This document shows, one piece after another, positions 456 through 15,661 of a stretch of DNA of 64,000 nt (positions are counted from its first letter, which is position 1; every line of letters begins with the position of its first letter). Location: assembly GCF_020054945.1 (NCBI RefSeq), contig NZ_JAIHAU010000002.1:26579-90578 (forward strand), in the 5' to 3' direction. The position numbers and the translations under genes are program-made. This stretch comes from Mahella sp. (lineage in GTDB: Bacteria > Bacillota > Clostridia > Mahellales > Mahellaceae). The notes below the pieces were generated by a model. That model did not search any database. It was not told the DNA's origin and saw only the letters and a program-made list of their open reading frames with translations.

Positions 456-1622
456 TCATTCACCCCCCATCACTTTTTTTACAAGATCCGAGCCATAGCG
501 CTTTTCGACGATATTTACGTTGCCTCCGAATATATATTCAAGATAGTCTTTAAGTATATCCGCCAATTCCTTTACATCAATATGCTTATCCTTTACACAT
601 AATCCGGGCGGTGCAAAAGCGAAAACCCTTAAGCGATACCCCTGCCCATCAGCCCTCTTGTATGGCATACTGAAAAACACGCGTCCAGCCAGCCTTTGTT
701 CATCATCTTTGACGTTTTGACTGCTTGGTCCCAAAAGCAAATCCAACTCTTTCGGCTGGCTGACATCGGCACTCTCCTGCCAATCTTTATTTTCCTTGAG
801 CCACCTTCGAAAACCGAAGAACTTGCCGTCTTTATCGTTGGCTTCATATTTTAGGTCAAATACACATGGTATGTACCCTTCTTTATTGCTGCTGTTTTTT
901 TCTATAAATGATTTAAGACCCTCTTTATTTATATCGCAATCCATAGTAACCAGATTGGAAAGGGAGTAGTCGTGTTCTATGCTATTTTCTGAAAGCGCCG
1001 CACCCTTGTTCAGCAGTTGCTTCATTTGATTCATAATTAGCCTTTCATCACAAGCAGGTTCTAGCAAATGGATTTGACCAAAGCCATGTTGCATTTTGGC
1101 CCCCAATCCCCCAAATAGCTCTATAAAGCTAAAAACCATCAGCAATTGTGACTTAATAAATTCACTATCTCTGCCATAGAAGCACAAATCAAACCCTATG
1201 TCGCCAAAGAAAGCCTTGTTCCCGTTAAATATTCTTCCCAGCCATCCCTTATTTTCTTGGTTTAATGAAACGAAAGAAAATGTTACCAAAGGTGCGTTTA
1301 CAACCCTAAACTGAAACCTTCTTTTCCACCCCCCGCATCCGAAAATCCTGCATACAGCGCATATGCCTTGCTCATCCAGTATATCATCAACCGTTTTGCC
1401 CTTTTTAATCCCCTCGTTATACTTTTCAGCGTCCAGCATGCACCGATTATCATCGCTCGTAATATCACAAACGCTGATGCCAAGGCCCCTGCATATAACC
1501 TCATACCAAAACCTCAGGCTACCTACAATGCTGGTTTCATGCAATCTATCACAGTCTTTAGCAACACCTCCCGACCATAAAGGCGTATAGGTTTTAATTT
1601 TTATATTCATTTCGTCTGCCAT
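456..1622 (-). CDS. cmr1: Cmr1-like RAMP protein (type III CRISPR effector subunit)
   Basis: This 388-residue protein opens with a stretch typical of Cmr1: a YTPLWSGG motif followed by ETSIVGSLRFWYE, matching the family pattern of a glycine-rich loop and a GxLRFWY helix. A GLGAKMQHGFG stretch near residue 180 is the glycine-rich RAMP loop. Cmr1 is a Cas7-group subunit that sits near the 3' end of the crRNA in the type III-B complex and helps capture target RNA. An RBS (GGGAGGT) precedes the chosen ATG. It follows the Csx11 gene by 15 nt and precedes another RAMP gene by 1 nt, so it is the middle gene of a Cas operon. Whether it is canonical Cmr1 or a Csx11-system homologue cannot be settled here. 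Confidence 0.85.
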   Translation of the reverse strand: MADEMNIKIKTYTPLWSGGVAKDCDRLHETSIVGSLRFWYEVICRGLGISVCDITSDDNRCMLDAEKYNEGIKKGKTVDDILDEQGICAVCRIFGCGGWKRRFQFRVVNAPLVTFSFVSLNQENKGWLGRIFNGNKAFFGDIGFDLCFYGRDSEFIKSQLLMVFSFIELFGGLGAKMQHGFGQIHLLEPACDERLIMNQMKQLLNKGAALSENSIEHDYSLSNLVTMDCDINKEGLKSFIEKNSSNKEGYIPCVFDLKYEANDKDGKFFGFRRWLKENKDWQESADVSQPKELDLLLGPSSQNVKDDEQRLAGRVFFSMPYKRADGQGYRLRVFAFAPPGLCVKDKHIDVKELADILKDYLEYIFGGNVNIVEKRYGSDLVKKVMGGE

Positions 1623-1637
1623 TTTAAACTTACCTCC

Positions 1638-4538
1638 CTAGTTAAAGAGTCCTTTCCTACTACAACATGAGTATAATTCGACGATATCCTTGAGTTCACC
1701 GGATACAGCTGCTTTCACAATATCGTCCATGTTGCCGGGTTTACCATTTTCCCACAAGGCGTTATTTAATACTGCCTGCACAAATTCTGAAAATACAGTA
1801 TCGTCCTTATTTGACTGCCATTCTAACCTTTTAGTCTCTATAAGCTCGATTAAGCCTTTGATTTGAGTAGATGATAGGCCTTGCTGCAATATGTCCCAAA
1901 TTTGAGAGAATGTATCTAATTCTTCTAACAGATACGGCCTATTGTCTCTATCGTTTTGTTTACCCCTTCTCCCATATTTCACCTCAAAACGTCGAGCCGA
2001 AGCATCTACATATATAAAATCAAACGATGAAGGATATATAGATACCGAATCACCTTCACGTAAGTCCTTGACATTGACAAGCCAGCCATCGGGACCCCTG
2101 AAAGCCGTGGAACGGTCCTGCAACTCTTGTAGAGAATTTACCTGTTGAGGATCTAAATAGAAATTGGAATGCCATATATCATCTTCTATATCCCACGTTA
2201 CACCATTTTCAAATTTCAGTTTATGATATTTATCATTGTGGCTGATAGAAGGCACGCGCCACGGTTCCTTTTTTGGCTTGTTTTTTACCATCTTATATGA
2301 AATGTCCAAAAGAGCGTTCATCGGGGTATTATGTTTGGCAATAGCCATACCTAAAAACAACGGCAGGCGATTTCTCACTTTGGCCATCTCCTGCTGATAC
2401 ATTTCTTTGATTTTGTGCACAACATCCAATGCCTTATCGGCAGGTACCAAAACGCTAAAATATTGAGGTTCACTTAATAAAGGAATAATCCTTGGATATG
2501 GAGCATCCAATAAGACAACATTTCTTATCTTTAAATCACCCAATTTTGAATTGGTTTCATTGCTTATTATTTCAATTGCCTTTGCGTTTGCCAATATCTC
2601 TCTTATATGCTCGCATGAAACACCATATTCGTTATCCAAGGAGAATTTCGGATCAAGTTGATTGGCCAATCTCTGCAGATTTTCGATTACGATATATCTA
2701 TTACCGTCATAATACAGATCAAACACAGTATTTTCTATCTTAGCTTCATAGGCGTAGTGCTCATCTATACTTGCTCCGCTTATTACATGCAAGAATTCCC
2801 CTGTTATCCCAATCCTTTGTTCTGCTCCACCAACCACTTTTTTAAGTTCTTTTAATACTTCGTTCCAAAATGCATAAGTGGTCCCCCACACCCTTTGTAT
2901 TCGAGCAAAGGATGGAGGCTTACGCCACACTCCCATGGCCAGCATTTCATTTTCCGGCATGTCTTCGTACTTTTCGCCTAAAAAGAGGGTTCTTTTCATA
3001 TTGCCCAAAGTGTTATAATCTGTCCTTGCAACTTTCTTAAATTTTTTAAGATTCTCTAAGTTACAACCATCCTTCTTGCCCTTAAACTCATTTGCAATAT
3101 CTGAGAATTCCACGCCACAATCTTCTTTGACATTTCTAAAGGTCGATATCATTCTACCGTTCAACCAATTATCAAGATCGAATTTTGCAGTTATAAGAGC
3201 AACCTCACCTTTAAAATCCGAAATTTCATTCATCCAAATGGTAGTATCTAACTTTTCAGTAGCCCATTCCTTACTTCTGCCACTTAAACGTTCAAAGCAC
3301 TTTTGGCATATCTTCCTTGACTCTATCTGTTGCGGTCTTACATGGCATATCGTACATTTATCCTTGGAACTTTGCCACTCCCTTTGAAGTAAAGCCAGAG
3401 TCGGCGATAAAGGCGCTATTTCTCCCGCCAATTCTGAGCCAGAAAAGAAAATACAGCGCCCCGCTGATTTGCTCACATTTACAGTGATAAGTACTTCACC
3501 ATCTGCCTCTTTATCGAACCTCCTCCTTATGACGTTTTCAAATGTCTCATTACTCTCACATTTATAATCCAATATATCCTCTATATCAGGAATTATAAAC
3601 AGTATACTATTGACATCACGATATACCTCAAACCCGAGAGGGTATTCTACCTCTATCAAATGCTTTATATTATCGAATCCCTTATTAATGAGATCTCTGT
3701 ATGCTAAAACAGCACCTATACGAGGTTTGGATATAAGCTCCAATCCATCTAAAGCTACACGCAGCGTCCTCCATTTATATTGTTCTTCCTTAACATCCTT
3801 GGTTGGTGGCCTATATTCACCATTTAATAGAACCTCCGCTAAAGAAGCCTTAAGAAAGGCCACTGAAGCCATAGTCTGATCCCACAGCGAAACATCATTT
3901 ACTGGCTTTCGCGTTTCAGCCACAGTGATTGAAAAATCATCCTTTAACCTTTCGATGAAGGATGAGCGCCATCCCAGCCATTGTGATAAATCCCAAGCTA
4001 TAGTTCCATCAATATAATCTTTTAATTCTTTTAGCTTGCTTTCCAAAAAATCATATAGTTCATGTCTGCGTTTACAGATCATATCGCGATCGATAAAACC
4101 GCTTTCATAACCAAAAGCCGAAGCAAGTGCCACATTTCCTTGCTGTTCATGATAGCTGCCATCTTCTAATATACCCTTTTCAACCGACGAACCCCTGGCA
4201 TGGGCATCCTTCATAAGCTTTAAATAACCGCTATCGTTATTCGATACTCCATTTTGATGGTTCTCAACTATATCCTTAATGGCAAATTTTGGTTTAGGCT
4301 CATCAATATTTTCGAATTTACACAGCGGTATGTTAAGCCATTTTTCTGCCAATAGCTTAAATAAATCAGGAAAATTTGATTCCAAATCGTCTGGAAGTTT
4401 ACGAGCATAGCTATGATTTATGAGAAATTTTTCATAGAATTTTCCTATCATGTGCAACCACATAGCAACTTCTACTGGCAGAAGCACATCGCGATTATCA
4501 GCCAATATCCCTAAATCTTTAGGTTTACCCTCATCCAT
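1638..4538 (-). CDS. csx11: Csx11-family Cas10-like large subunit with degenerate catalytic motifs
   Basis: This 966-residue protein is the large subunit of a type III effector complex. Visible in order: an HD-like N-terminus with LHMIGK near residue 28, where an active HD nuclease would show HD; NDVSLWDQTMAS near 220, where I would expect a WDH-type histidine; a zinc finger near 400 (CTICHVRP and ICQKCFERL); a first palm segment (AKFDLDNWLNGR); and a second palm near 690 reading EPQYFSVLVPAD where active Cas10 has GGDD. The C-terminal SARRFEVKYG stretch is as I remember it for Csx11. Cyclic oligoadenylate synthesis and DNase activity are therefore both doubtful. The start has the RBS GGGGTGAG. 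It is the first visible gene of the Cas operon. Confidence 0.85.
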   Translation of the reverse strand: MDEGKPKDLGILADNRDVLLPVEVAMWLHMIGKFYEKFLINHSYARKLPDDLESNFPDLFKLLAEKWLNIPLCKFENIDEPKPKFAIKDIVENHQNGVSNNDSGYLKLMKDAHARGSSVEKGILEDGSYHEQQGNVALASAFGYESGFIDRDMICKRRHELYDFLESKLKELKDYIDGTIAWDLSQWLGWRSSFIERLKDDFSITVAETRKPVNDVSLWDQTMASVAFLKASLAEVLLNGEYRPPTKDVKEEQYKWRTLRVALDGLELISKPRIGAVLAYRDLINKGFDNIKHLIEVEYPLGFEVYRDVNSILFIIPDIEDILDYKCESNETFENVIRRRFDKEADGEVLITVNVSKSAGRCIFFSGSELAGEIAPLSPTLALLQREWQSSKDKCTICHVRPQQIESRKICQKCFERLSGRSKEWATEKLDTTIWMNEISDFKGEVALITAKFDLDNWLNGRMISTFRNVKEDCGVEFSDIANEFKGKKDGCNLENLKKFKKVARTDYNTLGNMKRTLFLGEKYEDMPENEMLAMGVWRKPPSFARIQRVWGTTYAFWNEVLKELKKVVGGAEQRIGITGEFLHVISGASIDEHYAYEAKIENTVFDLYYDGNRYIVIENLQRLANQLDPKFSLDNEYGVSCEHIREILANAKAIEIISNETNSKLGDLKIRNVVLLDAPYPRIIPLLSEPQYFSVLVPADKALDVVHKIKEMYQQEMAKVRNRLPLFLGMAIAKHNTPMNALLDISYKMVKNKPKKEPWRVPSISHNDKYHKLKFENGVTWDIEDDIWHSNFYLDPQQVNSLQELQDRSTAFRGPDGWLVNVKDLREGDSVSIYPSSFDFIYVDASARRFEVKYGRRGKQNDRDNRPYLLEELDTFSQIWDILQQGLSSTQIKGLIELIETKRLEWQSNKDDTVFSEFVQAVLNNALWENGKPGNMDDIVKAAVSGELKDIVELYSCCSRKGLFN

Positions 4539-4562
4539 TGAAACTCACCCCTTAATTTCTTT

Positions 4563-4588
4563 TCGTAGTATCAAAAGTATTGATATGC
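4563..4588. repeat. Copy A of a 26-nt dispersed repeat, in the csx11 leader
   Basis: The core tcaaaagtattgatatgc, with its left flank tcgtagt, recurs at 7681-7706 in the same orientation with one mismatch in 26. This copy begins 24 nt upstream of the csx11 start codon. A short tract (tgctttag) follows a few bases further on in both places. It could be the end of a lost mobile element or a recombination footprint. Confidence 0.6.
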
Positions 4589-4635
4589 CATGCTTTAGCC
4601 TCTTTGTTAGGCTCTATTTCGAAAGCTGTATAGAC

Positions 4636-4814
4636 TATATTGGAAGGGCAGCCGTCAAAGCTTTAAACGCCGGCATCAACATTGTCTTGGTATGCCATGA
4701 ATATGGAAATGAGATAGCGGCAATTGAAGCCATAAAAAAGCCACAAACGAGGACGCTATATCCATGGATAAAATAAATGCCAGCGTAGATGAAATCTACC
4801 AGGTTCTATATTGA
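4636..4814 (+). pseudogene. Frameshifted 3' fragment of a nagZ-like gene
   Basis: The plus-strand reading AAVKALNAGINIVLVCHEY is almost the same as a stretch of the intact NagZ downstream (AAVKALNAGIDIVLVCHEY). Only the last 60 or so codons are present. An A run has six A's here against seven in the intact gene, so the frame shifts. In the shifted frame the similarity continues (EDAISMDKINASV) to a TGA at 4812. It has no start codon of its own and is a decayed partial duplicate. Several silent differences from the intact copy show the duplication is not recent. Confidence 0.85.
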
Positions 4815-4819
4815 CCGCC

Positions 4820-5125
4820 CTACTTAAGATAATCGTTGAGCTGTTCCACATCGTTTATTTCAAAAATGGTATCAGCTATAGTCTCTAATACCGCATCATT
4901 CTGTTCCCTTATCTTCTCAACGTAATCTTCCGATAAGGTTCCAAACCTCTTCCGCAGAAACCTAACAATCATTTCTGCTTTGCCCTTTTCGATGCCCCTT
5001 TCAATGGCCTCAGCTATACCTTCGGCTTTGCCTTTCTCAATGCCTTTTTCAATGCCTTCAGCTATACCTTCTTCTCGTCCGATCTCTTTATAAATCTTGG
5101 CTAGGTTACTATTATCCCATGTCAA
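4820..5125 (-). pseudogene. C-terminal remnant of an Rpn-family (PD-(D/E)XK recombination-promoting nuclease) gene
   Basis: This 101-residue ORF carries only the tail seen in Rpn/transposase-like proteins: WDNSNLAKIYKEIGREEGI, then a charged repeat of GIEKG/GIAEG units likely to form a helix or coiled coil, then MIVRFLRKRFGTLSEDYVEKI. The nuclease domain that should precede it is absent. A sigma-A-like promoter lies about 75 nt upstream, so the fragment may still be expressed, but no function can be assigned. A second, shorter copy lies at 6760-6952, each copy following a nagZ 3' end. Confidence 0.7.
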
Positions 5126-5200
5126 TCCTATGTTATCACCTTCTCCTCAAATTTTAAACCTTTTTCTTTCGGCCGCTCTAACATATCATCATTCGTACCC

Positions 5201-5229
5201 ATCATACCATATTTTACATCTATGTGCAA
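5201..5229 (-). promoter_or_regulatory. Sigma-A-like promoter upstream of the Rpn remnant
   Basis: On the minus strand TTGCAC and TATGAT are separated by 17 bp, matching four or more of six bases in each box. It points at the Rpn tail ORF and may be left over from the intact gene. Confidence 0.45.
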
Positions 5230-5477
5230 GAATATATTTTCGCATATAATCTATCATCTCATACGCTGCGAGATTATTGAAGAGCCCGAGCTCTTACGGT
5301 TAAGGTGAACTTTGGTTCAAATTTATATCATTCGCATCGTACAATTGCTGCTTGCCCGCAATAGTAAATGAGATTTGACGCATAAGGAATTTTCATCAAA
5401 AATTGATTAGCTGTAACCTTTTGGTGTATGATATATAATGTGTATTGCTTAAGCAGACAAAATAGTAGAAACGGAGA

Positions 5478-6752
5478 ATGGCAAACGTGCGCAGGATAAT
5501 CCTGATAACTGTTATTTTAAGCATAATCGCCGCATCGCTTATTGGATGCGGGTTGGGTAAAAACCAGACGCCAAGCTCCCCGCCCAAAACCGGAGATTCG
5601 AGTTCAAAGCCGCCCGAATCGGGAACCGAGCCTCAAGCGCCAGAGCCCCCTTTGGAAGAAAAGGACCCCATTGAAGAAAGAATTGACGCCATGACGCTCG
5701 ATGAGAAAATAGGGCAGATGGTCATAGTAGGATTAGATGGATATAATATAGATGAGAATGCCAAAACCCTCATTGAGGAAAAGCACGTCGGCGGATTTAT
5801 ACTATTTGAAAGAAACGTCGAAGATGCCGCTCAATTGCTGAATTTGACAAATTCATTAAAGCGCGCTAACACGGTCAACAAGATTCCTCTATTCATATCC
5901 GTCGACGAAGAAGGCGGAAGAGTATCCAGGATGCCCGATAGCATAAAAAAGCTCCCCACCAACAAAGCCATAGGCCAGATCAACGATGCCGACTATAGCT
6001 TTGGAATAGGCAGCGTTATCGGTAAAGAATTGAAAGCTTTTGGTTTCAATATGGACTTTGCGCCCGTGCTGGACATCAATAGCAATCCGAAAAATCCCGT
6101 AATAGGCGATAGATCTTTTGGCGCAGATGCCCAGACTGTAACCAAACTGGGCATACAGACCATGGAGGGAATCCGCACAGGAGGCGTTATCTCGGTGGTT
6201 AAGCATTTCCCCGGCCACGGGGATACATCGGTGGATTCCCATATAGACCTGCCCTCGGTCAACAACAGCTTGGAGCGATTGAGGAGTTTTGAGCTCATTC
6301 CATTCGCTTCGGCCATAGAAAACAACGCCGATGGGATAATGGTGGCTCACATACTCTTACCGAAGATCGACCCCGGCTACCCTTCTTCTATGTCTAAAAA
6401 GATAATAACCGGCATTTTGAGGGAAGAATTAAAATACGACGGCGTGATATTAAGCGACGATCTCACCATGGGCGCCATAGTAGATAACTATAGTATTGGA
6501 ACGGCGGCCGTCAAAGCTTTAAACGCCGGCATCGACATTGTTCTGGTATGCCATGAATATGAAAATGAGATAGCAGTAGTCGAAGCTATAAAAAAAGCCG
6601 CAAATGAAGGCGCTATATCCATGGATAAAATAGATGCCAGTGTGTATAGGATTTTAGCGCTGAAACAGCGGTATGCCCTTAAGGACGAGGAAATAGAGTC
6701 CGTCGATGTTAAGAGCATCAATGACGCCATAACCCATGCCCTCGACCGATGA
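5478..6752 (+). CDS. nagZ: Lipoprotein beta-N-acetylhexosaminidase, GH3 family (NagZ-like)
   Basis: This 424-residue GH3 enzyme removes N-acetylglucosamine from glycans or peptidoglycan fragments. The N-terminus is a lipoprotein signal (hydrophobic stretch ending LIGCG), followed by a Pro/Ser-rich linker to about residue 65, so the enzyme is probably anchored outside the membrane. The NagZ-type motif KHFPGHGDTSVDSH supplies the catalytic Asp-His pair and SDDLTMGAI carries the nucleophile Asp. The C-terminal Ig-like domain of large GH3 enzymes is absent, as usual for NagZ. The ATG start is very close to a GGAG, so a GTG a few codons downstream is possible. A broken partial copy lies upstream and an Rpn remnant abuts its 3' end. 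Confidence 0.92.
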   Translation: MANVRRIILITVILSIIAASLIGCGLGKNQTPSSPPKTGDSSSKPPESGTEPQAPEPPLEEKDPIEERIDAMTLDEKIGQMVIVGLDGYNIDENAKTLIEEKHVGGFILFERNVEDAAQLLNLTNSLKRANTVNKIPLFISVDEEGGRVSRMPDSIKKLPTNKAIGQINDADYSFGIGSVIGKELKAFGFNMDFAPVLDINSNPKNPVIGDRSFGADAQTVTKLGIQTMEGIRTGGVISVVKHFPGHGDTSVDSHIDLPSVNNSLERLRSFELIPFASAIENNADGIMVAHILLPKIDPGYPSSMSKKIITGILREELKYDGVILSDDLTMGAIVDNYSIGTAAVKALNAGIDIVLVCHEYENEIAVVEAIKKAANEGAISMDKIDASVYRILALKQRYALKDEEIESVDVKSINDAITHALDR

Positions 6753-6759
6753 GCCCATA

Positions 6760-6952
6760 TAACTGCATCATTCTGTTTCCTTATCTTCTCAACGTAATCT
6801 TCCGATAAGGTTCCAAACCTCTTCCGCAGAAACCTAATAATCATTTCTGTTTTGCCTTTTTCGATGCCCTTTTCAATACCTTCAGCTATACCTTCTTCTC
6901 GTCCGATCTCTTTATAAATTTTAGCCAGATTGCTATTATCCCATGTTATCAC
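6760..6952 (-). pseudogene. Second, shorter Rpn-family C-terminal remnant
   Basis: The reading ITWDNSNLAKIYKEIGREEG through LSEDYVEKIRKQNDAV repeats the first remnant almost exactly, with one GIEKG block fewer. It then breaks off a few bases from the nagZ stop codon, and the track ORF runs on into antisense nagZ sequence, which is not real coding. The upstream DNA also matches the first copy (aaattttaaacc stretch). It is a truncated duplicate. Confidence 0.75.
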
Positions 6953-7016
6953 CTTCTTTATCCAATATGCGCTTTATTTCTCCCTCAAATTTTAAACCTT
7001 CTTCTTTTTCGGCAGC

Positions 7017-7047
7017 TAAGTACTTTCGGAAACTCCGAAAGTACTTA
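7017..7047. repeat. Perfect 14-bp inverted repeat
   Basis: TAAGTACTTTCGGA and its exact reverse complement flank a 3-nt spacer. It has no T tract on either side long enough for a clear terminator. It sits in a gene-poor, remnant-filled stretch and could be a terminator relic, a protein-binding site or part of a lost mobile element. Confidence 0.6.
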
Positions 7048-7222
7048 AAATCTATGTTAAAGGCTTGACTGTTTATGTCTTACCTGCAACATTCCCCGTA
7101 CCTTGTCTATACACTTTGTTTAAAAATTTTTGGCTGCATTTTATCTTGACTTTTTCAAAATCGCCCCATAATCGAAATGGATAGCACTATTTACCATTAC
7201 TTCGATTCCGGGAGGTTTTATT

Positions 7223-7348
7223 ATGTTGCGTGACTGGCAGTCTCATATGGATTATCAGCAGTATCTTTTATCAACTTTACCTGAGTTCTTTAATGTTAAG
7301 GGAGACAGGGTGCTTAGGTTAGAAGGTTCAATATCTAAAAATGCATGA
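7223..7348 (+). CDS. Unrecognised 41-residue ORF with a good RBS
   Basis: The ATG follows GGGAGG at normal spacing and the frame runs MLRDWQSHMDYQQYLL to a TGA at 7348. I do not recognise the product. It reads like the N-terminus of a longer protein cut short, for example a lost transposase, since the flanking DNA is full of remnants. It is too short for the ORF track's cut-off. Confidence 0.3.
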   Translation: MLRDWQSHMDYQQYLLSTLPEFFNVKGDRVLRLEGSISKNA

Positions 7349-7404
7349 TAATATTTTATCGGCCTTTTCGGCTGAAAGAACTATCGCAAATAAGATTCTT
7401 CTGC

Positions 7405-7674
7405 TTATGCCATATACTTTCCATCCTTACAACGCCAAAGCCAATTTTCGCCATCATAATTCTCAATTTGTGTTTCTATCTTCTTTACATAATCCGCAGC
7501 AGATTCCTCGTTTGCGTACCAGACATTTGCTTGCCCAAAACCAAAAGAACGAGTTACCCGTTCCCTGGGAACCTGCCAGATATGGAAGTTCCTTTGACCT
7601 TCAGGAAGCAGTACACAATCGTCTGCGGCAGCTTCTATATTATAGTCTCGATCATCAATTTCTTGATAATACCA
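7405..7674 (-). pseudogene. 5'-truncated remnant of an unrecognised protein
   Basis: The minus strand holds an 89-codon open frame with convincing protein-like composition (CVLLPEGQRNFHIWQV, RSFGFGQANVWYANEE, YDGENWLWRCKDGKYMA) and a natural TAA stop. It has no start codon, and a TGA stands directly before its first codon, next to copy B of the 26-nt repeat. It therefore looks like the C-terminal part of a gene cut at that point. The plus-strand ORFs the track lists over this stretch are its shadows. Confidence 0.5.
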
Positions 7675-7680
7675 TCAATA

Positions 7681-7706
7681 TCGTAGTGTCAAAAGTATTG
7701 ATATGC
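7681..7706. repeat. Copy B of the 26-nt dispersed repeat
   Basis: It matches 4563-4588 in 25 of 26 bases and lies exactly at the broken 5' side of the 7405-7674 remnant. That position suggests a recombination or insertion endpoint. Confidence 0.6.
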
Positions 7707-7782
7707 TAATGACCCGTAATGCTTTATATGACTTGCTTTCGCAAGTATTTGAACCTTTACCCTCACCTACCTCCACCTTTTG

Positions 7783-10131
7783 CTATGAGAGTGGTCTGGC
7801 AGGAGCAACCGCAATATTCCTCGGTGGTACAATCTCATCGATCTTATAGCGCAAAAACAGTTCATCTAGGAAACCGTCAAGCTCGTCGGAATTAGGGTAT
7901 TTCCATTCCTCAGATCTGAAAGCTTCATCGTGATTCCAATACCCATTTGCATGCAATAATTCATGGTATATGACATACTTTATTACATCCGGAGGAACAT
8001 CAGGTGAGCAAAGCAGCTTATTAATAGCTATAACAACACTGCCATCATCATATTTTGTGCATAACCCAAATCTGCTTCTCAAAGGCTTATTGCTCCACCT
8101 TATTTCCGGCTTAACACCATTGGGAAACCACTTCTCAATTACTTCATTATAAAGCTCTTCCAAGTTGAAATAATCCTCTACAATATTGAACTCTGCCCTC
8201 TCATCAATGCTCACAATTTGAGGTTCAGCAGGCTCGCCATCTGAAAATTTCTCAATATAGTCATTTACGGTATGTTTAAAGACAAAAAAAGTTTTGTATA
8301 ATTCTCTGATTATAGGAGTGGAATCGTACATTTCCTTCAATTTATACTCTTGTTCCGAACGCCGCAAGTCCATGTCAAACAACTTTTTTGCAATCTTCTT
8401 AGCATCGACCTCGTCCCTCTCCTTGAAGGTATAAAACGGTGGCATTTCACCCAACTCATACAGCGTATCTAATATCAGCTGTATATCATCAAGCTTAGGA
8501 AGATTTTCTTCAATATCGAAATAATTCTTTAACACCTCTTGTGCAGTGGGTTTGTTTGCCAGCAGATTATCTGCATTTTCCGCTATAAGCTCATATCCCG
8601 CTACTTGATTATCATATACAAGAACCTTTACATCTTCCCCATCACTATTAACTACCGCATACCAGCCTTGGGGGAAAATTTCATTATGCGAAATCCCAGT
8701 AATATTCATTTTCATTGCGCTGTACATCTTAAGGTATAAATCCCATATAGGATAGTTTTCTTCTGGTTCATTTGGAAAATCTAAGCTATTAACCTCAACT
8801 ATATCTTCATTTTCATCAATGAGTTCTTGTACCTCTCCAAATTCATCAGCAATAAGCTTCTTAGGATCAAGCCAAAAATTGAATCTATCCCAAGTATCAT
8901 GGAAATCAACAATATATGCTAATTTTGTTCCACCTGCATCAACACCTCTTAACCCTCTACCTATCATTTGCATAAGCAGCGAGTCGCTATTGGTTTGACG
9001 TGTGAGAAAAACTGTTTGTATATCCGGCACATCGCTTCCCTCGGTTAATATTTGAACGTTTATAAGCACGTCAAATTTATCAGCTTTAAAATCTGCTATG
9101 GTTTCCTGTATACCAGGTTCGCCCGACATACAAAAACGACAGGAAACGCCTGCTTCAGTGAATGCTTTTGCCAATGTAACACAGTGCAGCCTGTTAACTG
9201 CAAACACCAGAGTTTTCCCATATTTGTCCTTATGCTTTATATATTCGTCAACAATTATCTGATTACGGACCGAGGACTTTGCAAGCTGCTCTTTTAAGTG
9301 TTCTGAAAGCTCCCCAAATTTTTCAAAGTACACTTCGTCTTCTTCCGTTAAATCGAACTCGATTTCACCATTTATTTTGGTTTCAATTCTCTTATATACC
9401 GGCTCTGCCAGAAAGCCGGTAAGAAGAAGCTCTCGCAATGTAACTTCGTATATGTAACCTTTATCTGTACCCTTTCCATTTTTTATATTGCTATTTACAT
9501 TAAACATCCTTAGAAGCTGACCCTGTTCAGCATCCTGCATGCGATAAGGCGTTGCCGTAAGACCTAGCAATAACCTGTTTGGGTTGATTTCTGATATTTT
9601 TTGTATTACCTTCCGATACGAAAGAGACACGGCATGATGTGCCTCATCAATAACTACGATTAGCTTTCTTTTACCATTAGCCCCTAACATCCTTCGTAAA
9701 TATCTCATGCCATTTTTACTTGCTACCGAACCAATACCGCAAATGTTTATGTCATACCCCAAAGCCTGTGACATTGAGTGATGCCCACCTGATACCGGAA
9801 TAATTTTTAATGTTTTAAAACCATGGTTCACAAGAATTGGCGCTTGCTTGCAAAAAGTGTTATATGTTTGTTCAATAAGCTCCTGCCTATGTACAAGCCA
9901 TAAAACTTTAAAGCCTTGTGCCACGGCTCTGTCAAGCAACCAATTAACAACTGTAAATGTTTTACCGCTTCCAGTCGGCATTACAAGTAAACCATTTTGA
10001 GCTTGTTCTGTTTTACCCGATAGATCGAAGTACATGTCTAAACTGTTTATAGCTTCCAATTGATGCTTGTAAAGCTTCTTATTTTCGGTATCGGAGTTTA
10101 GTAAATCTATAGGATCTGTGTATTTCCTCAT
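7783..10131 (-). CDS. SF2 DEAH helicase fused to a C-terminal HExxH zinc-protease-like domain
   Basis: This 782-residue protein has a complete superfamily 2 helicase core: MPTGSGKT (Walker A, near residue 52), VVIDEAHHA (DEAH, near 165), GLTATPYR (motif III), ILTEGSDVPD and QMIGRGLRG (motifs V and VI). After a middle region of no recognised fold, the C-terminal 120 residues hold YHELLHANGYWNHDEAF, a HExxH followed by an NHDxxF histidine, as in SprT-like and YgjP-like zincins. Such a fusion would join DNA unwinding to proteolysis, as in DNA-protein crosslink repair or phage defence; that role is inferred. The TTG-ATG pair offers two starts; I prefer the ATG at 10131. It sits alone between mobile-element remnants. 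Confidence 0.8.
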   Translation of the reverse strand: MRKYTDPIDLLNSDTENKKLYKHQLEAINSLDMYFDLSGKTEQAQNGLLVMPTGSGKTFTVVNWLLDRAVAQGFKVLWLVHRQELIEQTYNTFCKQAPILVNHGFKTLKIIPVSGGHHSMSQALGYDINICGIGSVASKNGMRYLRRMLGANGKRKLIVVIDEAHHAVSLSYRKVIQKISEINPNRLLLGLTATPYRMQDAEQGQLLRMFNVNSNIKNGKGTDKGYIYEVTLRELLLTGFLAEPVYKRIETKINGEIEFDLTEEDEVYFEKFGELSEHLKEQLAKSSVRNQIIVDEYIKHKDKYGKTLVFAVNRLHCVTLAKAFTEAGVSCRFCMSGEPGIQETIADFKADKFDVLINVQILTEGSDVPDIQTVFLTRQTNSDSLLMQMIGRGLRGVDAGGTKLAYIVDFHDTWDRFNFWLDPKKLIADEFGEVQELIDENEDIVEVNSLDFPNEPEENYPIWDLYLKMYSAMKMNITGISHNEIFPQGWYAVVNSDGEDVKVLVYDNQVAGYELIAENADNLLANKPTAQEVLKNYFDIEENLPKLDDIQLILDTLYELGEMPPFYTFKERDEVDAKKIAKKLFDMDLRRSEQEYKLKEMYDSTPIIRELYKTFFVFKHTVNDYIEKFSDGEPAEPQIVSIDERAEFNIVEDYFNLEELYNEVIEKWFPNGVKPEIRWSNKPLRSRFGLCTKYDDGSVVIAINKLLCSPDVPPDVIKYVIYHELLHANGYWNHDEAFRSEEWKYPNSDELDGFLDELFLRYKIDEIVPPRNIAVAPARPLS

Positions 10132-10225
10132 CAAATAATACCCCCAACTTCTTCATTCCAGAAGAGACATCATACCAAGTGTATCCAGAAAAAAACGTCT
10201 TTCCTCGTAATTCCCTTTTACCTTA

Positions 10226-11052
10226 GATTCCCGCCTACTCATAACGAGGTAGGCGGAGTAACACCTAATTTTATATAAAGCTCCTTCTGTTTCTCAAGAA
10301 GCTCACCAATGCGTAGTTCCCACCCCGAACTCTCAAAGCATTCGATAACATTCAGTTTGTCAAGAACACCCTGAAGCGTATAACTTTTAAATAAATCATG
10401 ATCCTGCATCTGCTTTTTGATATAGGAAAGATAAATAAGTGCAATGAACTCAACAAATAGTTTACCGTCAAGGCTTTGTTCTGACGAACCAGCGTACGCA
10501 TCATATTTAATCTTTCTTTGAGATTGCCGAAGGCTTTCTCAAGACATCTTTGTTACGGTATATTCCCAAAACAGTGATGGAATCCATGGTCTTATTGGTA
10601 ATAAGTGCGAAAAGCCGTAATACCGCTTTTCAAAACGAGATAGTGGGCTGCTGTCCTCTGGCATCTAACAGGTACGTGGCACCGTAGAAGTATCGTGCTG
10701 ATTCGGTTGTCGAAGATGGCCCTCTTTTCGCAGGTGCAGTTAAATCATCTTCTTTCTGCCTCTGCCATCAGTAAGAATAATTTCGCCGGTTTTTATGTTT
10801 ACCCGGCCTATCAGAGTACGTTTGGCACGGAACTGTTTTTTCTCCTTATCCCAGTAAGATACTGATTCATATGCGTAAGTTATACCCAATCGTTTGTCTG
10901 TTTGATAAACAATCGCTGCCATATACATCCCCCTCGTTATGTGTTGTAACGCATAACGAGGCATTATGCAAGTGTAATATGACAACTATTCTAGTATTCA
11001 TCTATGTTTCGAGGCCTTTTTCTCTAAACCTCGTTATGAGATAACGGGAATC
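10226..11052 (-). mobile_element. Decayed, internally deleted IS1634-type insertion sequence
   Basis: Both ends carry an imperfect 24-nt terminal inverted repeat (10226-10249 and 11029-11052) that shares GATTCCCG and CTCATAACGAGG, with the four bases between them variable. The inside holds a broken transposase. At about 0.83 kb it is roughly half the length a complete member should have. No convincing target-site duplication was found outside the ends. It is non-autonomous unless an intact relative exists elsewhere in the genome. Confidence 0.75.
10239..10985 (-). pseudogene. IS1634-family transposase remnants
   Basis: The N-terminal part is intact and typical of the family (AAIVYQTDKRLGITYAYES, then YWDKEKKQFRAKRTLIGR) and stops after GRGRKKMI. 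The middle catalytic part is deleted. Further on, in other frames, EKAFGNLKERLNM and SSEQSLDGKLFVEFIALIYL through LGVTPPTSL represent the C-terminus, whose TGA lies inside the left terminal repeat. At least one frameshift and a large deletion make it inactive. The track lists only the 81-residue N-terminal piece. Confidence 0.8.
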
Positions 11053-11560
11053 CAGGCTATAACAGACAAGGTTATATCCATCGCACGTTTTATGAACAGA
11101 TATGTAGCAGGTATCTCCCGCGTTCCCGTTATATATCTACTTACTGGCGGCGTAGTATTATCCGTCAGCATGTGTTCGTTCTGCATATGTACCTATCCCC
11201 TTTACAATATCTGGTGTTTCTAGAAAATACAATACTTTTCTCCTTATGGTATATCGGATGGCATTTTTTGGCCATGGCTCATGCATCTGCCAAAATATAT
11301 CGCTTCTTTTGTGTTTCTTCTATGACCTCTTTGGTCCTCCCCGGGGCCGAAACACCCGGCTTAAACCGCCGATTTTGTATTGCCCGCCATGTTGTACTTC
11401 TATTATAGCACAGCGCAGCGCAAAAGCACTTGCAAAAGTCAAAATTAGCAGTACTTAACTCCTATTTTTTCTTTAAAAGTAACCCCTTCTGCTTTTAATT
11501 GTATTATTATTGTTGAAATACGTCAATAGTAATATCTTAGTAATCTTTTACGAAGCGGGG
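11053..11560. other. Gene-free stretch between the IS remnant and the isomerase leader
   Basis: No ORF here looks like a protein. The outer side of the IS end (ataacgggaa, 11041-11050) has an exact inverted partner at 11123-11132 (ttcccgttat), which may be a second relic end. A GC-rich patch near 11335-11390 interrupts AT-rich sequence. The three track ORFs here lack protein-like composition and RBS support. Confidence 0.4.
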
Positions 11561-11562
11561 AT

Positions 11563-11592
11563 AGCGGCCGGCCGCTTTGGCACGGTCGTGCC
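11563..11592. promoter_or_regulatory. Two adjacent palindromes upstream of the isomerase promoter
   Basis: AGCGGCCGGCCGCT (11563-11576) is a perfect palindrome, and GGCACGGTCGTGCC (11579-11592) is a second inverted repeat 2 nt away. They end 28 nt before the -35 box, so they lie outside the transcript and could be operator sites. The regulator is unknown. Confidence 0.4.
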
Positions 11593-11619
11593 TTCCATGG
11601 CAGAAATATTGTTTTACCG

Positions 11620-11647
11620 TTGCATCAACATAAAATCGTGGTATAAT
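11620..11647 (+). promoter_or_regulatory. Sigma-A promoter of the isomerase gene
   Basis: TTGCAT and a perfect TATAAT are separated by 16 bp on the plus strand, about 100 nt before the start codon. Confidence 0.6.
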
Positions 11648-11749
11648 TTATATGTATTCTATAAACGTTGCGCTGTATGTTTGTATGTTTTCTGAACACG
11701 ATTACATATGGCGCAAATAATGTTGTTACATAAAAGGAGATGTTGTTTT

Positions 11750-13249
11750 ATGCGTTCCACACCCATTGGCATAGTAATGATGAACGACGCACGCCCGCAC
11801 GTATACAGCGTCAACAACGCTGAAAATATGGCTGTTGTACAGGGCTGGGCAGATGTAATTCGCCGGCGTTTTAAAAACGTCGACGGATCCTCGCCGGAAG
11901 TGATAACCGCTTCGGAAACCATCACCGGCGTGCGCGTCGCACAAAAAATAGGCGAGGAATTGCGCCGAGCCAATTGTCGCCAGGTCATCATGTGCTACAA
12001 TGTATGGGATTTCCCGTATCTGGTATGGCCTTTCATCAATTCCCTGGGCAGAGATGTGCCAATATTAAGCCTTTCCAACAACAATGGCCAGTATCCCGGG
12101 AATGTCGGCCTTTTGGCCACTGATGGGGCTCTGCGCCAGGCCGGTATACGCACCCACCGGATAGTAGGCGATATGAATGATCAAAGCACTCAAGATCAGG
12201 TGCTGGATTGGTTGCGCGCCAGCGAGGCTTATACCACGATGCACAACGAGATATACGGCATATACGGCGGCCCGTCTATGGGCATGGATACGGGCTATTT
12301 CCACCTTGTTCCCAATGTCAAGACATTTGGCACCAATGTATTTTTCGTAGACCAATTGCTGTTGCTTAAAAAAATGGAGAAAGAGGTCGATGAGGCTGAG
12401 GTTGAGAAGGGTTTCAAATGGTTTAACGACCTTTTAGGCGATCGTATATTGTATGACGGCCATATGCTTACACCGGAAACATTGAAAACACAGATACGCC
12501 TTTATCTGGCCATGAAGTTAGTGAATGAAGAAGAAGGTTTCAATTTCTGCGGGCTTAAAGGCCAAAGAGAGCTTACCGAAAACGTATGTCTGGGCGATAT
12601 AGCCGAGATGCTGATGAACGATCCATACGATTGGAACGGCCCGAAAGAGCCTATGGTATGCGCTACCGAAGGGGATTCGTATGCGGCTATGACAATGCAG
12701 CTTTTGAAGTATGTAAGCGGCGGTCTGCCCACATTATTCATGGATGTGCGTTTATATCATCCTGAATTGGATATCTGGGACTGGTGTAATTCCGGCAATC
12801 ACTCCAGCTATTATGCCAGCTACAGCATGAATGCCGCCGATAACTTTAAGAAGCTGACATTGCATCCGGCGCTTGAGTTTTACTTCAAAGCAGGCGGAGC
12901 ATCTGTGGCATTCGATGCCGGACCGGCTCAGATGACATTTGCGCGATTGGGCTTATGGGACGACAAACCATTTATGGTCATAATGGCCGGAGAGAATGTG
13001 GAACTTCCCGCCGAGCAACGCAAGGCTATAAATGCTCAAACCGATCCCACCTGGCCGCATGTTCATGCGCGTGTACACGGCAGTTTCCAGGAATTTCTGA
13101 ATGTATTCCCCGCCAATCATGTATTGGGTGTAAAAGGCGACTACGTGCGCGCTTTAAACTATCTATGCGAGATAATAGGCATTCCGTCCATAATACTTGG
13201 ACCGGAAGGTCAGCAACGCTTGAAGCCGATATGGGAGATAATGAATTAA
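11750..13249 (+). CDS. L-fucose/L-arabinose isomerase-family protein
   Basis: This 499-residue protein belongs to the FucI-like fold, which interconverts aldoses and ketoses with Mn2+ in the cytoplasm. Candidate metal ligands are visible: Glu in CATEGDSYAAM, Asp in LFMDVRLYH and His in the HVHARVHGSFQ/ANHVLG region. I moved the start from the track's 11708 to the ATG at 11750 because AAAAGGAGATG precedes it at proper spacing; the first 14 track codons then fall in the leader. The gene stands alone, with its own promoter and terminator and no kinase, aldolase or transporter beside it. Its true sugar cannot be read from sequence; fucose, arabinose and related sugars all remain possible. Confidence 0.85.
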   Translation: MRSTPIGIVMMNDARPHVYSVNNAENMAVVQGWADVIRRRFKNVDGSSPEVITASETITGVRVAQKIGEELRRANCRQVIMCYNVWDFPYLVWPFINSLGRDVPILSLSNNNGQYPGNVGLLATDGALRQAGIRTHRIVGDMNDQSTQDQVLDWLRASEAYTTMHNEIYGIYGGPSMGMDTGYFHLVPNVKTFGTNVFFVDQLLLLKKMEKEVDEAEVEKGFKWFNDLLGDRILYDGHMLTPETLKTQIRLYLAMKLVNEEEGFNFCGLKGQRELTENVCLGDIAEMLMNDPYDWNGPKEPMVCATEGDSYAAMTMQLLKYVSGGLPTLFMDVRLYHPELDIWDWCNSGNHSSYYASYSMNAADNFKKLTLHPALEFYFKAGGASVAFDAGPAQMTFARLGLWDDKPFMVIMAGENVELPAEQRKAINAQTDPTWPHVHARVHGSFQEFLNVFPANHVLGVKGDYVRALNYLCEIIGIPSIILGPEGQQRLKPIWEIMN

Positions 13250-13252
13250 CCG

Positions 13253-13280
13253 ATAAAGCCGGGCATATGCCCGGCTTTAT
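13253..13280. terminator. Bidirectional intrinsic terminator
   Basis: ATAAAGCCGGGCAT and its reverse complement form a perfect hairpin, with A and T tracts at its ends, between the convergent isomerase and nitronate monooxygenase genes. Confidence 0.85.
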
Positions 13281-13295
13281 TAATATGTTCAGATT

Positions 13296-14408
13296 CTATA
13301 CGGTATTGCTCTCGATAAGGTTTGCCATTTCATCCAGCGCCGCCTCCGCCGATTCCACCAGCTCGTTTATGAGCTCTTTTACCGGCATTATGCGGTCTAT
13401 CCTGTATACATTGGCCCCCGCAAAAGCAAAACCATTATCCAAATCACCCTGCCTGGCACTTAATAATGCATCGGCTATACAATAGGGCGATGCCTTTGGA
13501 TCACATGTCTTTAAACAATTGTACTGGCAGCGTATGGGTTTTTTTATGCCCATGGCCACATCATCCAGAAATTTATTCCTGATGGCTCTGCCCACAAGCC
13601 CCACCGGGCTCTGTATATATATTATGTCCTCTTTTTTCGCGTTTACATAAGCCATTTTAAATCGTTCATCGGCATCGCATTCATCGGTCGCCACAAAACG
13701 CGTGGCCATTTGCACGCCGTCCAATCCTTTGGCCAGCACTCGCGCTATATCCTTTCCGTCATATATACCACCGGCCACTACTACCGGTATATGCTTATCA
13801 TATTTTTGCTCAAATGGCACAATGCTTTTCTTTACGTCCAATGCAATATCTTCCACATCGATATCATCGATATTCTCCAGTTGCTTGGCGGAATAACCAA
13901 GGTGCCCGCCCGCTAAAGGTCCCTCGACAACTATGGCGTCGGGTACAACGCTGTATTTGTTATCCCAATTTTTGCATATAAGTACCGCAGCTCTGGCCGA
14001 TGATACTATAGGCACAGCCTTGGTATCGGTACCTTTTGTGACCTCGGGCAGGCGCATGGGCAGGCCTGCTCCGGCAAATATTATATCTATACCCTCTTCC
14101 ACTGCAGCTTTAGCCAATTCAGCAAAGTTGGTCATAACAGACAGAAGATTTAAACCTATTATCCCATCAGGGCTGGCCTCTCGCGTCTTGCGTATCTCTT
14201 CCTTGAGGCCTTTTATCGACGAAGCGCGATAATGCAATCTGAAATCGGGCTCGCGAAATCCTACCGCGGTGCCCGATATGACGCCTATCCCGCCCTCATT
14301 GGCCACGGCCGACGCCAATCTTGACAACGATATACCAACGCCCATACCGCCTTGTATAATCGGTATTTTGGCTATTAAATTTCCTATCCTCAGTTTGGGT
14401 AATTTCAT
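13296..14408 (-). CDS. Nitronate monooxygenase / FabK-like flavoprotein
   Basis: This 370-residue TIM-barrel flavoprotein belongs to the 2-nitropropane dioxygenase family, which uses FMN to oxidise alkyl nitronates; close relatives (FabK) reduce enoyl-ACP. Visible motifs are IIQGGMGVGIS at the N-terminus, EGPLAGGHLG (FMN and catalytic His region) and VVVAGGIYDGKD followed by DGVQMATRF (phosphate binding). The C-terminal cysteine group CQYNCLKTCDPKASPYC is characteristic of the longer clostridial subgroup and might hold a metal, which is inference. It has its own RBS (AAAGGAAAT). The genes on either side do not define its substrate. Confidence 0.85.
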   Translation of the reverse strand: MKLPKLRIGNLIAKIPIIQGGMGVGISLSRLASAVANEGGIGVISGTAVGFREPDFRLHYRASSIKGLKEEIRKTREASPDGIIGLNLLSVMTNFAELAKAAVEEGIDIIFAGAGLPMRLPEVTKGTDTKAVPIVSSARAAVLICKNWDNKYSVVPDAIVVEGPLAGGHLGYSAKQLENIDDIDVEDIALDVKKSIVPFEQKYDKHIPVVVAGGIYDGKDIARVLAKGLDGVQMATRFVATDECDADERFKMAYVNAKKEDIIYIQSPVGLVGRAIRNKFLDDVAMGIKKPIRCQYNCLKTCDPKASPYCIADALLSARQGDLDNGFAFAGANVYRIDRIMPVKELINELVESAEAALDEMANLIESNTV

Positions 14409-14476
14409 AAATATTTCCTTTACAAAAAATAAACTTTTATATGTTATTATACCATGCGGTTATGTGCTGAGCAACA

Positions 14477-15661
14477 CTAATTATGCAGATTTTCAACAAA
14501 TGCCCCGATGCGCTTTAGCGCTTCTGTCAATGCATCTATAGAATAAGCATAGGAACAGCGTATGAAGCCTTCTCCGCTGGCACCGAAGGCATTGCCCGGC
14601 ACAACAGCCACCTTTTGTTCCTGCAGCAGCCTTTCGCAAAATTCCTCGCTGCTCATACCGGTACGCTGTATAGACGGAAACACGTAAAACGCTCCTCTGG
14701 GCTCAAAACACTCTAAGCCCATATCATTAAAGCTTTTGACCATAAGCCTCCGCCGCCTGTCATATTCCCTATGCATGCGTTTTACATCTTCATAGTCGTC
14801 GTTATAGCCGGCCCGCAGCGCTTCTACTGCGGCTATCTGGCTCATAACGGGTGCGCAAAGCATGGTATATTGGTGTATCTTGACCATAGCCGCTATTATG
14901 TCCCTATGTCCGGCCGCATAGCCGACGCGCCATCCCGTCATGGCAAAAGCCTTGGAGAATCCGCTTATAAGCACTGTTCTTTCTTCCATACCCGGCAAAG
15001 ACGCTATGCTGACATGCGCTGTATCGCCATATGTAAGTTCGGCATATATCTCATCCGATAATACGAGTATATCGGTATCCTTCAATACATCAGCTATAGC
15101 CTCAAGATCCGACCGCAGCATTACTCCCCCGGTAGGATTATTGGGATAAGGCAATATAAGCGCTTTGGTATGGGGCGTTATAGCCTCCCGCAATGCCTGC
15201 GGCGTAAGGCGGAACTCATCCTCGGCCTTGGTCACTATAGGCACCACGCGGCCGCCCGCCATCTCCACACAAGGCATATAAGACACATAGGAAGGCTCGG
15301 GGACCAATACCTCATCGCCCGGGGTCACTATCGCTCTCAACGCTAGATCTATAGCCTCGCTGGCTCCCACAGTAACGATTATCTGGTCCTCAAAGCTGTA
15401 AGCAAGGTTAAAGCGATGGGACAGATAACGCGCGATCTCTCTGCGCAGGTCGGGTAATCCCCAGTTGGATGTATAATGCGTATAACCCTCTTCTAAAGAA
15501 TGTATGCTGGCCTCTCTTATATGCCATGGCGTTATAAAGTCCGGTTCGCCCACACCGAGCGATACTGCTCCTTCGATCTCGTCGACTAAGTCAAAAAAAC
15601 GCCTTATGCCCGAAGGCGGCATATCTCTGATAACCGGAGATATCATATCCTTTATATTCAC
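14477..15661 (-). CDS. Class I/II PLP aminotransferase (PatA/AspC-like)
   Basis: This 394-residue fold-type I aminotransferase transfers amino groups between amino acids and 2-oxo acids. The Schiff-base Lys is in LISGFSKAFAMTGWRVGY, the PYPNNPTGG and DEIYAELTYG motifs contact the cofactor, and IRCSYAYS holds the substrate-carboxylate Arg. Its ATG overlaps the stop of the upstream Lrp-type regulator by 4 nt, so the two form an operon and the regulator probably controls amino-acid use through this enzyme. Aspartate, aromatic or branched-chain substrates are all possible. A decayed relative of its C-terminus exists at 44414-44654. Confidence 0.9.
   Translation of the reverse strand: MNIKDMISPVIRDMPPSGIRRFFDLVDEIEGAVSLGVGEPDFITPWHIREASIHSLEEGYTHYTSNWGLPDLRREIARYLSHRFNLAYSFEDQIIVTVGASEAIDLALRAIVTPGDEVLVPEPSYVSYMPCVEMAGGRVVPIVTKAEDEFRLTPQALREAITPHTKALILPYPNNPTGGVMLRSDLEAIADVLKDTDILVLSDEIYAELTYGDTAHVSIASLPGMEERTVLISGFSKAFAMTGWRVGYAAGHRDIIAAMVKIHQYTMLCAPVMSQIAAVEALRAGYNDDYEDVKRMHREYDRRRRLMVKSFNDMGLECFEPRGAFYVFPSIQRTGMSSEEFCERLLQEQKVAVVPGNAFGASGEGFIRCSYAYSIDALTEALKRIGAFVENLHN

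Follow-up and report, generated by a model that had tools for sequence, protein, structure and literature searches.

The window, a stretch of 64,000 nucleotides from Mahella sp., contains on its minus strand a gene whose product joins an SF2 helicase core to a middle region and a C-terminal zincin domain (Table 1). A pseudogene or frameshift was rejected because the open reading frame, with its ATG at 10131 and its stop codon at 7783–7785, is uninterrupted over 782 residues and colinear up to the end of the zincin with two homologues (L003 and L004), whose zinc ribbon is the sole part missing from the window protein. A promoter scan around the gene returned sites no more numerous than those in shuffles.

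Table 1. Features of the helicase-zincin gene and its surroundings, in window coordinates.
Feature	Position	Strand	Details
Cmr1-type RAMP	456..1622	-	PADLOC Cmr1, 8.6e-26
Cas10	1638..4538	-	PADLOC Cas10c, 7.2e-166
Truncated partner gene	7408-7674	-	C-terminal ~88 residues of the reader-domain protein encoded in full beside the helicase in L010 (6991-7617)
26-bp repeat	7681..7706	.	second copy 4563-4588, 96%; truncation point of the reader fragment
Helicase-zincin gene	7783..10131	-	782 aa, stop codon included
C-terminal SprT/selecase-like zincin domain	7834..8175	-	residues about 653-766
Predicted third zinc ligand, H734	7930-7932	-	
HELLH catalytic motif	7951..7965	-	H723, E724, H727
Middle region	8182..8892	-	residues about 414-650; PxGWY and Rx2-4D motifs
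Motif VI, QMIGRGLRG	8944-8970	-	listed with the second RecA-like domain
Helicase_C, second RecA-like domain	8947..9252	-	residues 294-395, Pfam 9.3e-10
ResIII / SF2 helicase, first RecA-like domain	9541..10080	-	residues 18-197, Pfam 6.5e-26
TATP	9547-9558	-	in first RecA-like domain
DEAHH	9634-9648	-	in first RecA-like domain
Walker A	9958-9978	-	in first RecA-like domain

The helicase core has the full set of SF2 motifs (Walker A, DEAH, TATP and QMIGRGLRG). Its best curated match in NCBIfam was the RadD model NF053632 (116 bits, E = 1.4e-33), a score that falls far short of that model's 720-bit cut-off. Searches with PADLOC returned matches to the helicase region only (the best being PbeA, 2.7e-23, over residues 14–410), with no full-length match to any PADLOC-listed system protein, and none of Pfam, NCBIfam and PADLOC reported a nuclease family outside the helicase core. 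The initial annotation had described a complete SF2 core followed about 330 residues later by HExxH, a description with which the motifs and the Pfam matches agree, down to the exact coordinates.

Beside this gene lie cmr1 and cas10, which make up a type III CRISPR effector operon (456–4538, noted together with 15666–19042 of L111) and the only defence system next to the gene in the stretch that was read. Cas10 fits the PADLOC type III-C model best and Cmr1 is of III-B/III-C type; a search of L111 and of window positions 4400–12000 turned up no CRISPR array. Transposase relics, IS1634-like by eye, lie directly upstream of the helicase-zincin gene (10260–10985). The region had initially been read as containing CRISPR and IS remnants, which is right for the IS parts but not for cmr1 and cas10, both of them full-length open reading frames. 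Between 4563 and 7007 the window is rearranged, with the 3′ end of a NagZ-like gene duplicated (4638–4786 versus 6494–6643), and it also contains Rpn-like fragments at 4820–5125 and 6488–6952.

The C-terminal zincin domain

The zincin motif of the window protein is HELLHANGYWNHDEAF, which follows the pattern HExxH-x6-H, with HExxH at residue 723. When the window protein was shuffled, HExxH alone arose in 2.5% of the shuffles, and HExxH together with the third His and the Phe in 0.015%. HExxH and the third His are invariant in 6/6 helicase-family zincin members, and the three catalytic His residues and the Glu are unchanged even among members at about 23–33% identity. Over residues 659–739 the domain scored 23.5 bits against the Pfam YgjP-like family (PF01863), just under the cut-off of 26, and 15.6 bits against the SprT-like family (PF10263; cut-off 25.6). 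Because these scores lie under the curated cut-offs, we call the domain SprT-like in fold rather than a member of SprT or YgjP. For the L010 homologue, NCBIfam also gave a match to its SprT family (5.8e-6).

We modelled residues 414–782 with AlphaFold2, using an alignment of four homologues. The zincin part, from residue 653 to about 760, was modelled at a pLDDT of about 65–91 as a helix, three strands, the HExxH helix and further C-terminal helices. The model as a whole scored low (mean pLDDT 50, pTM 0.37) because the middle region (pLDDT 30–47) was not resolved. In a Foldseek search of the PDB, a probability of 1.00 was reached only by selecase (4qhi, 4qhf), a minimal archaeal zincin, and by human SPRTN (6mdw, 6mdx), with a TM of up to 0.73 by target length for selecase; the best viral structure matches include SprT-like phage proteins. 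As modelled, then, the C-terminal domain folds as a zincin of SprT/selecase type, the type originally proposed from the motif as SprT/Spartan-like, and conservation, shuffles and structure together led us to reject HExxH as a chance motif.

A helicase family with exchanged effectors

Four further full-length homologues carry the zincin: L003 (from a Lachnospiraceae MAG, 47%), L004 (from a Ruminococcus MAG, 49%), L006 (from a genome of the same phylum) and L010 (on an IMG/VR contig). Together with the window protein they form half of a set of ten homologues, of which the other five have an HNH-type domain where these have the zincin: L008 and L009 (on two Deinococcus plasmids), L007 (G204), L125 (G737) and L097 (G521). 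These HNH members keep the same helicase and middle region, with a PxGWY or PxGLY motif. In a helicase tree with phage outgroups, all ten homologues fell into one clade (support 100/99), and the zincin and HNH labels required one change each (85/94; 94% of bootstrap trees), making a single effector swap the simplest history. Zincin and HNH are thus swapped effectors on a common chassis of helicase and middle region.

The middle region, which had been described as 300 residues matching nothing, indeed has no Pfam match, but it is a conserved part of the family, present in zincin and HNH members alike. Because it is common to ten homologues of one helicase clade, we regard it as a family feature. 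Among the variants, the HNH motif of L097 (8294–10714) looks degenerate, its cysteines being kept and its DH lost, and judging from these residues the domain may be inactive. Another relative, L124, has lost the helicase; what it keeps is an N-terminal domain that L010 and L006 also have, a portion of the middle region, and the zincin. An HNH-TPR version (L095, 6248–10413) adjoins a ComM gene fragment and has prophage genes on its other side.

The helicase-zincin family is rare. With the protein as query it was found in 3 of 299 other genomes of a phylum sample; a class sample of 390 other genomes, scanned with a profile of the middle region plus zincin, yielded hits in 2, one of them a stand-alone YgjP-type protein. 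Of 60 sampled relatives only the window genome itself has the gene, which is absent from both other Mahella-genus genomes and from all other 57 relatives, and a core repair gene was rejected on this distribution. When viral sequences were scanned, neither the helicase alone nor the middle-plus-zincin profile retrieved a relative, and a scan with the profile retrieved one full-length relative (L010) and many ordinary phage helicases.

Defence neighbourhoods and a partner reader domain

Known defence genes occur in seven of the eight zincin-bearing loci, a raw count over few loci with no formal null, and comprise type III CRISPR, Dnd, BREX-4, GmrSD, and type I and type III R-M. In L003, DndB, DndC and DndD (1.3e-126 to 1.8e-219) lie about 8 kb away, and an integrase is nearby. 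In L004, the end of the helicase-zincin gene is about 1.3 kb from a WYL regulator, which is followed by BrxP (7e-233), BrxC (5e-233), PglZ (2e-81), BrxL (2e-216) and then a GmrSD protein; on the other side, directly upstream, are S24, UmuC and YolD-like genes, which point to SOS or repair. GmrSD adjoins the gene in L006, a locus that also has an HNH gene, and the 36-kb L010 contig, which carries phage replication genes, has a complete type I R-M system (HsdR) about 13 kb away. L126 has a type III methyltransferase (Mod, 1.6e-135), a ResIII protein and GmrSD, and L127 has a type I methyltransferase (HsdM, 8e-180) and GmrSD; by eye, the neighbours of L124 include only a possible toxin-antitoxin pair. 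The R-M genes near L010, L126 and L127 are parts of complete systems of their own, and among the translated ORFs around the window gene we saw no cognate methyltransferase. L003 also encodes, near its helicase-zincin gene and Dnd locus, a reverse transcriptase with a C-terminal zinc-binding region (12347–14482), which adjoins an exonuclease III-like gene and matches a general RT model best.

The homologues thus have defence islands rather than housekeeping genes as their setting, in keeping with the defence-rich region first noted for the window. Two tests set beforehand for refuting that annotation, one for the lack of a zincin fold and the other for homologues in housekeeping contexts only, both came out negative.

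In L010, the helicase-zincin gene is preceded by a gene for a 208-aa protein, which we call the reader, and the stop and start codons of the two genes overlap (TAATG), so that the two proteins are very likely co-translated. A fragment of the reader lies in the window just downstream of the helicase gene and in the same direction (tblastn 5e-10); it ends at a 26-bp repeat whose other copy precedes cas10. The window genome has no second copy of the reader, which is broken here, and the local system may therefore be partly decayed. In the stretches examined around L003, L004 and L006, the search returned no reader gene.

The reader domain has no match in Pfam or NCBIfam and occurs in 3 of the 398 other genomes that we sampled. 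Elsewhere it stands at the N-terminal end of HNH proteins (L101, L116), of NOV_C/DUF3883 proteins (L102, L113, L129) and of an ankyrin-repeat protein (L131, 1474–2652), the last adjoining a TnpB-like protein. A divergent reader fused to HNH occurs on the minus strand of L042 (from 4575), a viral contig that also has a phage helicase. Two proteins of about 400 aa from two additional genomes, encoded within 1127–2761 of L126 and 8915–10641 of L127, have an N-terminal zincin followed by a reader-like segment: a reader profile built without them found L127 (hmmsearch, E = 2e-6), and profile-profile comparison (hhalign) of the reader with their segment gave 92.9% (E = 3.8e-7). Ahead of each fusion gene lies a related small gene, of 143 and 149 aa, respectively, with which it could possibly form a two-gene system or which could encode a protease substrate. 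At the sequence level, the link between zincin and reader consists of neighbouring genes in two loci and of fused domains in two more; because the helicase-zincin and reader families are both rare (about 1% of sampled genomes), repeated adjacency is unlikely to have arisen by chance.

The model of the reader (pTM 0.74) had a best PDB match at E = 0.19 and none below 0.001. YTH or EVE proteins made up 17 of the top 50 of these weak matches, and the EVE-HNH restriction enzyme VcaM4I was one of them; this offers a lead, at the level of the model, that the partner domain might be a modified-base reader of PUA-superfamily (EVE/YTH/SRA) type.

Proposed function and relation to known systems

A role in defence is likely for the helicase-zincin protein, and our analysis reads it best as a restriction-like defence ATPase that would use DNA-dependent proteolysis in place of DNA cleavage. 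Slightly better than even, in our judgement, are the chances that it is a rare accessory restriction-like defence protein, with a RadD-related motor and a SprT/selecase-type protease acting on invading DNA. We consider it possible, but hold it more tentatively, that delivery of the SprT-like protease falls to a motor tracking along DNA and a reader of the modification type, with foreign DNA being recognised but proteins rather than DNA being cut, and with protease and nuclease interchangeable on the chassis. SF2 ResIII domains of restriction enzymes drive DNA translocation, and the motor here would be a RadD-related SF2 translocase, probably coupled by the conserved middle region to the C-terminal effector, which would be a SprT/selecase-type zinc protease in this branch and an HNH-type nuclease domain in the sister branch. 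The ATPase would load on invading DNA, in some lineages under the direction or licence of the partner reader encoded next to it, and would then move along that DNA, presumably driven by ATP. SPRTN cleaves proteins in a DNA-dependent manner (PMC5127644, PMC5128726); in a similar way the zincin would cleave DNA-bound phage replication, packaging or protection proteins, and infection would be blocked through their loss.

The strongest rival, on account of the S24, UmuC and YolD-like genes directly upstream of L004, is that the protein repairs DNA-protein crosslinks or roadblocks as a bacterial SPRTN analogue with its own helicase, carried on mobile elements, with the defence neighbours as bystanders. 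Structurally, SPRTN is one of the best matches, and the repair helicase RadD is the closest NCBIfam model, but occurrence in about 1% of genomes and absence from close relatives are unlike core repair, HNH-type domains in the same slot of the sister clade would be odd for a repair protease, and the partner reader goes with restriction-type effectors; on balance we think repair unlikely. A smaller chance still attaches to regulation of the neighbouring restriction-type systems, in which the protease would clear R-M complexes from host DNA. ClpXP acts on HsdR in restriction alleviation, and the zincins lie beside type I and type III R-M, BREX-4, Dnd and GmrSD genes; yet the system nearby changes from each locus to the next, is type III CRISPR alone in the window within the stretch read, and the HNH sister versions do not fit.

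Just as improbable is an offensive protein of a mobile element, whose zincin would cleave host defence proteins. In the polyvalent proteins of phages and plasmids no domain is commoner than the zincin metallopeptidase (PMC5512222), SprT-like peptidases occur in jumbo phages (PMC7824862), phage replication genes share the IMG/VR contig of L010, and an integrase is encoded near L003. However, the protein is a single chassis of one motor and one effector rather than a polyvalent array, the sister versions carry an HNH-type domain, and the company is that of resident defence systems.

DNA cutting is the defining trait of restriction-type systems; the design of the helicase-zincin protein is restriction-like, and its effector is not. 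If the restriction-like reading is true, the swap of a nuclease for a SprT-like protease would show that DNA recognition can be wired to proteolysis in bacterial immunity, and a bacterial relative of the SPRTN fold would be at work in phage defence. A helicase and a protease in one polypeptide would also offer a compact test of a long-open question, that of helicase aid to DNA-dependent proteases, and the reader domain provides a second handle, connecting HNH, DUF3883 and zincin effectors. Helicase-nuclease and reader-nuclease fusions are already known in restriction (PMC12839542, PMC7897488); in the open-licence literature that we searched, we found no description of a helicase-SprT/zincin fusion in defence.

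Compared with known systems, the window protein has the same ResIII/Helicase_C layout as RadD (YejH), but its clade has a middle region of its own and a zincin or HNH tail, and it is accessory whereas RadD belongs to core repair. With SPRTN/SprT and selecase (a minigluzincin) it shares the zincin fold, with HExxH and a third His; unlike the named SPRTN and selecase structures, the window zincin is fused to an SF2 helicase. The R subunits of type I and type III restriction enzymes and the BREX-related helicase-nuclease fusions (PMC12839542) likewise join an SF2 ResIII motor to a C-terminal effector, and they too are set in R-M and BREX islands; the restriction R subunits, however, carry a PD-(D/E)XK nuclease, whereas the helicase-zincin protein carries a protease and has no identified cognate methyltransferase. 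Modification-dependent endonucleases of the EVE/SRA/YTH-HNH type (VcaM4I, PMC7897488) have an N-terminal reader module, as does the series in which the partner reader is swapped between HNH and NOV_C/DUF3883 proteins; in contrast to those enzymes, to which its fold match is not significant, the partner reader is also joined to, or encoded beside, a protease. Finally, pPIWI-RE with an N-terminal zincin (PMC3702460) is likewise a rare case of a zincin on a restriction-like bacterial module, although that module is PIWI-based and has no helicase fusion, and the two zincins are likened here by description only.
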